Part shown: positions 31,429 through 35,111 of the stretch, one piece after another | Layout of the letters: each line of letters begins with the position of its first letter | How positions within the stretch are numbered: position 1 is the first letter of the stretch | NCBI GenBank assembly: GCA_040754375.1 | Contig: JBFMCT010000005.1 | Location: forward strand, 1-64,000 | Source: Actinomycetota bacterium | Lineage (GTDB): Bacteria; Actinomycetota; Acidimicrobiia; Acidimicrobiales; AC-14 | Length of the DNA stretch: 64,000 bases | Direction of reading: 5' to 3' | Position numbers and translations under genes: made by a program | The notes under the pieces: generated by a model | Seen by the model: only the letters and a program-made list of their open reading frames with translations | Told to the model about the DNA's origin: nothing | Database searches by the model: none

Positions 31429-31504
31429 CTAACCCCCGCAACCGGTGTACGAACCGCGCCGGGACCGGCGCGTTCTGCACACCGGTCCGGTGAGCGGGGG
31501 TTAG
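31429..31504. terminator. Long nested inverted repeat between convergent genes
   Basis: CTAACCCCCGC (31429-31439) pairs with GCGGGGGTTAG (31494-31504), enclosing ACCGGTGT with ACACCGGT and ACCGCGCC with GGCGCGTT. The composite hairpin of about 76 nt overlaps the TAA stop of the minus-strand gene. It likely terminates both BNR2 and the minus operon. Confidence 0.8.
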
Positions 31505-32043
31505 GTCCCGGCTTCCTGGTCGGCCTTGCCCTGGTCCTTGGCCGCGGCCTGGGCGGCCTCGATGGCGGCTAGGTCGGGCCAGTGGGCCACCGTCCACATC
31601 AGGCCGAAGCCGAAGACGGCGAAGGCGGCCGACGAGTGGTAGATCGTCGGCGGCCAGGGGGCGAGGTCGCGGAAGGCCTCGGAGATGAGCGGGACGTGGG
31701 TGGCCACCATCCAGAAACCGGCCAGCAAGACGGCCATACCCGAGAAGAAGGGGATGGCGCCCGGCCCCCCCGGGCGCTTGCGGGCCATCAGGGTCACCAG
31801 CGACACCACGGCCACGAGGATGCCGGGGATGATGTGGTCGGCGATCTCCTTGGACGGCTCAGTGTTGAGGTAAGGGCCGCTGTACTGGGGAAGGGTGGCC
31901 CACAAGGCCACGCCAAAGCCGACGATGGGCAGCCAACGGCGGGGGTCGGCAGGTGGCGAGGACGAAGCGGCTTCCGCCGGCCCCGCCCCACCGGGAGCCG
32001 CGTCGGTGGCTACCGCCTCGTCGCGGGCCGGCCCGTCGCTCAC
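31501..32043 (-). CDS. Four-TM membrane protein, unknown
   Basis: A 180-residue protein from GTG 32043, 2 nt after the stop of the CooC2 gene. Residues 1-38 are Ala/Pro-rich. Four TM helices follow: about 40-60 (WLPIVGFGVALWATL), 72-91 (IIPGILVAVVSLVTL), 99-117 (IPFFSGMAVLLAGFWMVA) and 135-155 (SSAAFAVFGFGLMWTVA). Its last residues are Lys/Asp-rich. It forms an operon with BNR3, CooC3 and CooC2. A small membrane partner of the ATPases is possible. No family recognised. Confidence 0.78.
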   Translation of the reverse strand: MSDGPARDEAVATDAAPGGAGPAEAASSSPPADPRRWLPIVGFGVALWATLPQYSGPYLNTEPSKEIADHIIPGILVAVVSLVTLMARKRPGGPGAIPFFSGMAVLLAGFWMVATHVPLISEAFRDLAPWPPTIYHSSAAFAVFGFGLMWTVAHWPDLAAIEAAQAAAKDQGKADQEAGT

Positions 32044-32045
32044 GC

Positions 32046-32786: not shown

Positions 32787-32799
32787 GCGCGCAACCTCA

Positions 32800-33576
32800 T
32801 CAGGCACCTACCGTTTCTCGGGCGACCACCCGGTCGACCACTGATTCTACCTCCCGGACCGCCTCCGAACCGGGTGCTTCGTCGATGGGCGCCCGCCGAG
32901 CGCGCTCGGCGTCGGCGAAGGCCTCGTCCCAGGGGATGGCGCCCACGACCTCGATGCCGGTTCGCTCGGCGACCATGTCGGCGTCGTCGGGGCTGCGGAC
33001 CTTGTTGACGATGGCGTAGACCTGCGAGACGTTCTCCAGGTCGATCATGCGGGCCAGCCGCTTGGCCGACAGGATGCCCGCCGACCCCGGCTCGACCACG
33101 ATCAGTACCGTCCTGGCGAACGTCCCCCACCCCGTGAAGGGCTGGCGGGTGCCACCCGGCAGGTCGCCGACAACGTGCCAGTGGTCGTCGGGCAGCCGGT
33201 TGGTGATCTGGCGGAAGGCCATCTGCGACTTCCATAGGCGCTGGCCGCTCTCGGCCTGGCCCTTGACCTTGCCGAACTGCAGGAACCGCACCCCGTCGGG
33301 GGCCTCGACCGACCACCGGCCGATGGACTCGACGACGTCGAGGTCGTCGACGAGGCGGAACCGTGGGCCCCGCTCGCCTTCGGCCCGCTCCCGCACGGCT
33401 TCGTCGGGGATGCGCACGTCGTCGTCGATGTCGAGGCCCAACGACAGGGCCAGGCCCGGCAGGGGGTCCGAGTCGACGGCCAGCACGGGCTCTCCCCGGC
33501 GGGCCAGGAACCGGCAGAACGTCCCGGCGATGGCCGACTTGCCGGCCCCGCCCTTGCCCACGAAGGCCACTCTCAT
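32800..33576 (-). CDS. CooC/MinD-like P-loop ATPase without CxC (CooC3)
   Basis: A 258-residue protein from ATG 33576, overlapping the BNR3 stop (ATGA). Walker A GKGGAGKS (residues 7-14), VDSDPLPGLALSLG follows, and DLPGGTRQPFTGWGTF stands where Walker B lies. It has no Cys pair at the metal site. Residues KSQMAFRQITNRLPDDHWHVVGDLPGG suggest the same fold. It precedes the Sec-containing CooC2 gene with little spacing, so the two ATPases may form a heteromer. Metal binding, if any, must differ. Confidence 0.87.
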   Translation of the reverse strand: MRVAFVGKGGAGKSAIAGTFCRFLARRGEPVLAVDSDPLPGLALSLGLDIDDDVRIPDEAVRERAEGERGPRFRLVDDLDVVESIGRWSVEAPDGVRFLQFGKVKGQAESGQRLWKSQMAFRQITNRLPDDHWHVVGDLPGGTRQPFTGWGTFARTVLIVVEPGSAGILSAKRLARMIDLENVSQVYAIVNKVRSPDDADMVAERTGIEVVGAIPWDEAFADAERARRAPIDEAPGSEAVREVESVVDRVVARETVGA

Positions 33577-35111
33577 GTCTTTGCCGTCTCCTTCGGTTCG
33601 CTGGCCGGCTCGGGCCGGGCCCCCTGGCGCAGGGCGGTGGCCAGGGCCGCGGCCCCGATCACGAACAACCCCAGGATCACCGGCCACGAGCCCAGGAACG
33701 GGGTCTCGTCGGCCAGGGTGACCCGGACTGTGCCGATGTCCTGGCGGTCGTCGGCCTTGCTGCCCTGGCGGGTGTCGGTCCAGGCCGCCACGACGGTGTT
33801 GCCCGAGCTGTCGATCCCCAGCTTGGTGCCGAAGTCGACCCCGTGGAGCAGGCTGACCGAGGGACCGATGCCCGAGTCGAAGGCCTCGGAGGTCAGCCGC
33901 CGGTTGGTGAACGTCTCCCCGCCGTCGGTCGAGGTGCCCAGGAAGACGTCGGTCAGGATGTTGCGGGTATCGCGCCGGCGGTCGTAGAAGACCACGTCGA
34001 CCCGGCCGTCCTCGTTGACGGCCACCCGGGGCAGGTACTGGTCGGTGCCGTCCCGCAGGGGGTTGTCGTTGACCCTGATGGGTGCCGACCACGTACGGCC
34101 GCCGTCGGGCGACTTCTTGATGAACACGTCCTCGTCGCCGTTGCGCCCGTCCATCCACGTGGCGTAGATCTCGCCCCGGGGCCCGACGGCCAGGCCCGGG
34201 GACTCGGGCAGGTAGACCAGGAACCGCCTGGTCGGGATCAGCCCCGATTCGAACTCGACGCCCGGTGTCCACGTCTGGCCGCCGTCGCCCGAGCGGGTGA
34301 CCACCAGCGCCCACGGGTCCTCGAACACCGGGCCCTCGAGGTTCTCGAAATCGCGGCGGTCGCCCTTGTAGTCCTGGTAGAGCACGGTGACGTTGCCGTC
34401 GCGGTCGACCGCCGGGCTGGCCGAGGCGACCCGGTCGCGGCTGGAGTCGCTGATCACCACCGGCTGGGTCCACGTGTGGCCGCCGTCCTCGGAGCGGACG
34501 GTGACGATGGGGTTCTTGCCGAGCAGGCTCAGGTTGCCCGTCTCGCCTCCCTGGAGCCACGTGATGTGGATGGTGCCGTCGGGGGCGACGGCCATGCGGG
34601 CCTGGAAGATCTCACCCACGCCGCCGGCGATGCGGGTAGGCGGTGAGAGCGTGCGCCCACCGTCGGTCGAGGACGCGATCCACAGGTTCTCGGGGCCGTT
34701 GCCGTTGCCGACGAGGTTGACGTAGATCACATACAGAGTGCCGTCGCTGGCGAAGGCGGCGTCGGGCCCGAACGGGCACGGCCTGCCGGCCGTCGTGGCC
34801 GAGCACAGGCTGGTGCCGTTGGGCAAGGGCAGCTCTGTGGGTGCCCACGTGCGGCCGTTGTCCTCGCTGTAGTGGAGCAGGGCCGAGTAGTAGGGCCGGT
34901 CGACCCGGTAGGTCACGACCAGGTTGGACCCGTCCCGGGGGTTACGCACCATCGTCGGCGAGTTGATGGCATGGATGCGGGTCTCACCCTCGACCAGCAC
35001 GTTCTGGTGGATGGTGGTGGTGGTTTCCGTGGTCAGCAACGAGGCCGCGCCCAGCACCGCACCCAGGCCGCAAACGATGGCCACGATGGCAAAGATCTTG
35101 CGACGGCCCAC
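33573..35111 (-). CDS. BNR (Asp-box) propeller with N- and C-terminal TM, BNR3
   Basis: A 512-residue protein; the start at 35111 gives MGRRKIFAIVAIVCGLG. A TM/signal segment spans about 6-27. Asp-box turns: SEDNGRTW, STDGGRTL, SEDGGHTWT, SGDGGQTWT, SPDGGRTWS and STDGGETFT. A C-terminal TM (about 470-492) and an acidic/basic tail follow. It is the first gene of the operon with CooC3, CooC2 and the four-TM protein, so an outer propeller is co-expressed with cytoplasmic metal-chaperone-like ATPases. No sialidase triad is evident. Confidence 0.86.
   Translation of the reverse strand: MGRRKIFAIVAIVCGLGAVLGAASLLTTETTTTIHQNVLVEGETRIHAINSPTMVRNPRDGSNLVVTYRVDRPYYSALLHYSEDNGRTWAPTELPLPNGTSLCSATTAGRPCPFGPDAAFASDGTLYVIYVNLVGNGNGPENLWIASSTDGGRTLSPPTRIAGGVGEIFQARMAVAPDGTIHITWLQGGETGNLSLLGKNPIVTVRSEDGGHTWTQPVVISDSSRDRVASASPAVDRDGNVTVLYQDYKGDRRDFENLEGPVFEDPWALVVTRSGDGGQTWTPGVEFESGLIPTRRFLVYLPESPGLAVGPRGEIYATWMDGRNGDEDVFIKKSPDGGRTWSAPIRVNDNPLRDGTDQYLPRVAVNEDGRVDVVFYDRRRDTRNILTDVFLGTSTDGGETFTNRRLTSEAFDSGIGPSVSLLHGVDFGTKLGIDSSGNTVVAAWTDTRQGSKADDRQDIGTVRVTLADETPFLGSWPVILGLFVIGAAALATALRQGARPEPASEPKETAKT

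Follow-up and report, generated by a model that had tools for sequence, protein, structure and literature searches.

A selenocysteine-containing CooC-type ATPase linked to group 1m-like [NiFe]-hydrogenases in Actinomycetota, with a proposed role in nickel delivery

We describe an ATPase of the CooC kind, CooC2, which has two selenocysteine (Sec) codons at the positions of the CooC metal ligands and is encoded beside a sister ATPase, CooC3, in a 64,000-nucleotide stretch of actinomycetotal DNA (contig JBFMCT010000005.1, positions 1 to 64,000; the window). HypA and HypB are the standard nickel-insertion proteins for [NiFe]-hydrogenases. It is likely that CooC2, CooC3 and other CooC-like proteins together constitute a nickel-delivery module for a group 1m-like [NiFe]-hydrogenase that works independently of HypA and HypB. 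We consider evenly balanced the broader proposal that a HypA/HypB-independent pathway, in which the ATPase is heteromeric, Sec-liganded and of CooC type, matures a class of actinomycetotal [NiFe]-hydrogenases presumed to oxidise H2 with high affinity, with several CooC-like subfamilies using Sec in the ligand loop.

The operon and its two ATPases

CooC2 is the third of four minus-strand genes that are packed end to end (Table 1). The first gene, for a BNR-repeat propeller protein, shares an ATGA overlap with CooC3. The most likely start of CooC2 is the ATG at 32786, about 14 nt past the CooC3 stop; the alternative start upstream, listed as GTG 32807, would overlap CooC3. CooC2 stops at 32046, and 2 nt later the gene for a small membrane protein (the 4-TM protein) starts with the GTG at 32043. 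The order BNR-CooC3-CooC2-4TM is found again in about ten other genomes, and both in-frame TGA positions of CooC2 hold Sec or Cys in all 50 of the intact orthologues read, so the operon is not a chance arrangement. An Rfam search of the window returned no matches.

Table 1. Positions of the operon, its selenocysteine-related elements and the hydrogenase cluster in the window
Feature	Position	Strand	Evidence
[NiFe]-hydrogenase large subunit, C-terminal part, cut by contig edge	3..875	+	PF00374, E 6.3e-34
NifU-like Fe-S protein, hydrogenase cluster	1506..2126	+	PF01106, E 1.8e-18
HycI/HybD-type hydrogenase maturation protease	2676..3200	+	PF01750, E 1.2e-15
CooC1, second Sec-containing CooC-like ATPase (G-U-T-C-G, one Sec), hydrogenase cluster	7106..7864	+	
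Small membrane protein (4-TM, 3-4 TM)	31501..32043	-	Hydropathy; neighbour of CooC2 (about 15 loci)
CooC2, CooC-like ATPase with two Sec (G-U-L-U-C-G)	32046..32786	-	Orthologues have U or C at both positions; best solved relative 3kje
SECIS hairpin CCCGAGC-AGUU-GCUCGGG	32439..32456	-	Core conservation, covariation
Second Sec codon TGA, equivalent to CooC Cys114	32469..32471	-	Profile alignment to 3kje
First Sec codon TGA, equivalent to CooC Cys112	32475..32477	-	Profile alignment to 3kje
CooC3, CooC/MinD-type ATPase, intact deviant Walker A, no CxC	32800..33576	-	
BNR-repeat propeller protein, operon gene 1	33573..35111	-	Pfam BNR_2, E 1.2e-18; hydropathy

When a CooC2 profile was compared with the PDB, the best match was the CooC protein of Carboxydothermus (3kje; E 4.7e-25), which scored 91 bits, with MinD at 46 bits and the ATPase-type HypB (3vx3) at 23 bits. 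The Sec pair of CooC2 aligns with Cys112 and Cys114, the CxC metal ligands of CooC, and these positions are UxU, CxU or CxC in the CooC2 family; an additional invariant Cys follows the pair. The MinD-type fold and the deviant Walker A sequence of CooC (KGGxGK[ST]) are likewise present. The predicted fold is that of the MinD/NifH/CooC class, which CooC2 shares with NifH and BchL, and Foldseek did not tell CooC apart from either MinD or NifH. CooC2 is absent from the hypB matches (G3E GTPase, TIGR00073), and no CODH gene lies next to CooC2 in the loci read, which hold hydrogenase genes.

The P-loop of CooC3, GKGGAGKS, is intact, and a GDLPGGTRQ stretch is conserved at the position of Walker B. 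CxC occurs in 0 of 51 CooC3 sequences, for which reason we class CooC3 as CooC-like only. The gene lies directly upstream of CooC2 in every untruncated locus but one; in genome G049, CooC2 has no adjoining CooC3. CooC3 is thus a sister ATPase and conserved ligand-less partner of CooC2, although CooC3 could also act on its own.

The BNR and 4-TM genes are lineage-specific neighbours of the ATPase pair: among about 50 loci, a BNR gene precedes CooC3 in about 11 and a 4-TM gene follows CooC2 in about 15. The BNR protein looks like a membrane-tethered exported domain because hydropathy places a hydrophobic segment at each of its ends. In the 4-TM protein, E66, H70, T115-H116 and H136 are invariant and D69 is nearly so. 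Membership of the 4-TM protein in the SPW family was considered and not upheld, with 1 of 13 members matched (E 5e-4).

An earlier, sequence-only reading of this DNA had proposed four overlapping or abutting minus-strand genes, two of them for CooC-type ATPases, one lacking the metal cysteines and the other containing two Sec. Coordinates and spacing confirm the gene arrangement, the match to 3kje bears out the family, and the ligand-less CooC3 and the two TGAs of CooC2 are as described. The check on gene order that it called for has been run, and the recurrence in about ten genomes leaves the reading unrefuted. Its joint layout of propeller, two ATPases and four-TM protein holds for the ATPase pair, which is inseparable in nearly all genomes, but not for the propeller and 4-TM genes at their lower frequencies; the 4-TM product is a membrane protein, although hydropathy leaves the fourth segment uncertain.

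Three BNR propeller genes occur in the window, at 22153-23946, at 29932-31422 and as the first gene of the operon; the second of these is on the plus strand and converges on the operon. Two nearly identical 194-amino-acid exported proteins are encoded about 7 kb apart in opposite orientation, at 20366-21076 (-) and 27699-28283 (+). A second tandem pair, comprising a Cys-type CooC (CLCCG) and a partner that lacks the ligands and is extended at its N-terminus (locus L062, 9453-10960, G000:C1), lies near another BNR gene in the source genome and is conserved in several relatives, and a lone copy resembling this ligand-less partner occurs at L066.

Selenocysteine decoding in CooC2

CooC2 contains exactly two in-frame TGA codons, six bases apart, after which the frame is open to its stop. 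Among 49 orthologues, the motif is UxU in 33, CxU in 10 and CxC in 6, with no instance of UxC. When the motif is masked in building the tree, these three states require eight changes on it, indicating that Sec and Cys have been exchanged repeatedly. The sequence GAGCAGTTGCTC is found a few codons 3' of the motif in 43 of 43 TGA-bearing genes and in 0 of 6 all-Cys genes; TTG makes up only 7% of the Leu codons in the remainder of these genes. An additional orthologue, from G295, also has this hairpin core, bringing the UGA-bearing orthologues to 44. The loop of the core, GAGC-AGUU-GCUC, lies at distances of 19 and 25 nt downstream of the UGA pair. Covariation is seen in the pairs that flank the core (C-G and U-A, the latter where Ser replaces Gly, and G-C and C-G), 98% of cells in the covariation analysis are paired, and in the all-Cys genes the helix is disrupted. 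In individual genes, the stem is only modestly more stable than synonymous-codon shuffles (z of about -1), so the argument for a SECIS element rests on exact conservation and covariation rather than on folding energy.

The source genome encodes tRNA-Sec, selB and a selA that adjoins selB, and almost every UGA-bearing genome has a selB score above the cut-off, that of G335 falling slightly below it. CooC2 therefore shows the features by which bacterial selenoproteins are recognized, namely UGA/Cys exchange with conserved flanks, a downstream SECIS, and SelA, SelB and tRNA-Sec. Because the hairpin is kept with UGA and lost in all-Cys genes, and because the genome holds the decoding machinery, the comparative sequence evidence strongly supports decoding of both UGAs as selenocysteine. 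Were the TGAs ordinary stops, CooC2 would be a pseudogene or two separate proteins, as standard gene calling, which breaks it at 32475 and 32447, would have it. We regard this as highly improbable: the frame past the TGAs is conserved in more than 40 genomes, other orthologues have Cys at the same positions, and neither the covarying hairpin nor the Sec machinery fits with it. Pseudogene and plain read-through were both rejected, and the comparative evidence in practice excludes the stop reading.

Sec is also found in or near the ligand loop of other CooC-like subfamilies, with the motifs UTC, UTW/UTG, UGG and ULC. Their members include CooC1 of the window, G000:C11:60771-61514, and genes at L047/L048/L177, L167 and L169; their recurrent hairpins lie at a comparable spacing from the UGA and have CGUGC or AGUU, among others, as the loop.

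Linkage to a hydrogenase class and the absence of HypA and HypB

The CooC3-CooC2 pair has hydrogenase genes around it at about 18 loci. Members of the Pseudonocardiaceae, Euzebyales, Egibacteraceae and other Acidimicrobiia encode it together with hypC, hypD, hypE, the small and large hydrogenase subunits and two more CooC-like genes. The window has its own hydrogenase cluster at the contig edge (Table 1), which also encodes a TPR protein, and its large subunit is 70% identical to that of locus L061. The nearest solved structure to the large subunit is HofG (5aa5). A group 1m cluster that includes a CooC-type ATPase has been described by Ray et al. 2022 (PMC9561532), with 5AA5 again the best model. 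Shared with that cluster are adjacent subunits, a HybD peptidase, an Fe-S assembly protein, the CooC-type ATPase, and TPR, BirA-like and small TM proteins; the main text of that paper names the CooC-type gene but mentions neither selenium nor HypA. In cluster composition and closeness to HofG, with TPR and BirA recognized by eye, the CooC2-linked hydrogenase matches group 1m. Two small single-TM proteins like those of group 1m clusters are encoded at 13212-13807 of the window, and many loci have relatives of them close to the CooC pair. One genome (G004; contigs C52, twice, C53 and C81) encodes the group 1m-like large subunit in four complete copies and has at least nine CooC-like genes.

Of 296 genomes of the source genome's class, 8 encode the group 1m-like large subunit, and CooC2 is confined to 6 of these eight (Fisher 3e-11, phylogeny ignored). 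The two large-subunit genomes that lack CooC2 are G114, which has another CooC-like protein with Sec, and G325, which is 75% complete and in which none was seen. A broader CooC profile matches 16 genomes, namely 7 of the 8 with the large subunit and 9 others. Five of these nine were read: by eye, four hold CODH/ACS operons whose CooC is of the ordinary kind, and in the fifth the same pair of genes lies at the end of a contig.

We also compared HypA and HypB in 33 genomes examined for both, with counts that ignore phylogeny. Neither protein was over the cut-off in any of the 19 genomes whose only hydrogenase is group 1m-like, while among 14 genomes with the HofG-type enzyme HypA was found in 14 and HypB in 12. 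Among the 19 are the isolates Amycolatopsis marina, Pseudonocardia kunmingensis and Haloechinothrix halophila and an assembly made up of one contig of 3.27 Mb, so the absence is not due to missing contigs. The source genome has HypA and HypB together with a second, HofG-type hydrogenase set, and roles may therefore be shared or the work divided there. Two genomes (G057 and G027) have a HofG-type hydrogenase and HypA, but neither a HypB above threshold nor a CooC-like match.

Proposed nickel delivery and comparison with known systems

The ATPase pair tracks one hydrogenase class whose genomes often lack HypA and HypB, and it is therefore probably the nickel inserter. The metal-loading role put forward by the sequence-only reading fits best, with nickel as the metal; the membrane or exported partner it suggested is not borne out, as the most likely recipient is the [NiFe]-hydrogenase whose genes surround the pair elsewhere. 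CooC2 would bind Ni(II) at the U-x-U-C loop at a dimer interface. Binding and hydrolysis of ATP would close and open the nickel site, possibly in a putative CooC2-CooC3 heterodimer, with the nucleotide state controlling release; if CooC3 is the second half, the interface ligands would come from one side only. Nickel would then pass, by a predicted direct transfer, to a large subunit already holding the Fe(CN)2CO group from the remaining Hyp proteins, and the HycI-type protease would subsequently trim that subunit. Selenols, as softer, lower-pKa, easily re-reduced and redox-sensitive ligands, would suit a soft metal, aerobic cells and quick recovery after oxidation. Any part played by the BNR and 4-TM proteins is conjectural.

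The Sec pair might instead be a redox device that works without nickel, whose diselenide or selenenylsulfide responds to oxygen and turns ATPase-driven hydrogenase maturation on or off, or that hands electrons to a partner as NifH-type proteins do. Most known selenoproteins are redox proteins (PMC13188914), CooC2 belongs to the NifH/BchL fold class, and an extra invariant Cys stands behind the pair. We nevertheless think this unlikely, given that the Sec residues align with the CooC metal ligands, that orthologues with CxC are retained in the same genomic setting, and that the absence of HypA and HypB leaves a gap in nickel delivery. We are equally doubtful that the four genes are a separate lineage module, its ATPase pair recruited not for the hydrogenase but for an exported or membrane protein (the propeller or the 4-TM protein), which it would metallate or otherwise act on. 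Conservation of the order in about 11 loci of several families, the invariant Glu and His of the 4-TM protein, and the second, Cys-type CooC pair near a BNR gene in the source genome all speak for such a module; orthologous pairs nevertheless sit in hydrogenase clusters elsewhere, with the 4-TM gene lying between the pair and hypD at L059, and operon-bearing genomes still carry the hydrogenase.

Nickel delivery to the group 1m-like hydrogenase by the ATPase pair predicts a hydrogenase class that matures without HypA and HypB and connects selenium with the oxidation of trace hydrogen by actinobacteria of soils and the sea. Cultured carriers, among them Pseudonocardia kunmingensis (CxU) and Amycolatopsis marina (CxC), open the module to testing by gene removal. 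Searches of the accessible literature gave no instance of Sec in a CooC protein and no description of a CooC3-CooC2 module, and the splitting of the gene at its UGAs by ordinary gene calling would explain why CooC2 had been overlooked. A 'ULPU-containing selenoprotein', which appears in the accessible part of PMC5029168 as a table row without description, is possibly an earlier name for the family. On this evidence, and with that entry known by name only, CooC2 represents a new selenoprotein family of the CooC kind.

It adds a metal-handling ATPase selenoprotein family to those in a 2026 catalogue of 119 prokaryotic families, which includes no CooC-, MinD- or NifH-type ATPase (PMC13188914). 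Nearest in spirit there is the CobW-related selenoprotein (NF041053), a Sec-containing P-loop metal-handling protein; its motif is UxxC, and CobW belongs to the G3E GTPase family (PMC9164220) rather than to the CooC/MinD type. In Thermococcus, an ATPase-type HypB of the MinD/Mrp type takes the place of the GTPase HypB (PMC9164220), but it works with HypA, which is missing here, and it matches the CooC2 profile much less strongly than CooC does. The job proposed for CooC2, nickel delivery to the large subunit, is that of HypA and HypB, whereas HypB is a G3E GTPase and both proteins are absent from genomes with only the group 1m-like hydrogenase. CooC2 also resembles CooC and AcsF, which insert nickel into CO dehydrogenase/acetyl-CoA synthase in an ATP-dependent manner: the sequence family, the deviant Walker A, the positions of the ligand pair and the placement of a small ATPase beside a nickel enzyme are all shared. 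CooC2 differs from them in having Sec for Cys and an extra Cys after the pair, in being nearly always adjoined by the gene for a ligand-less partner, and in its link to a [NiFe]-hydrogenase instead of CODH.
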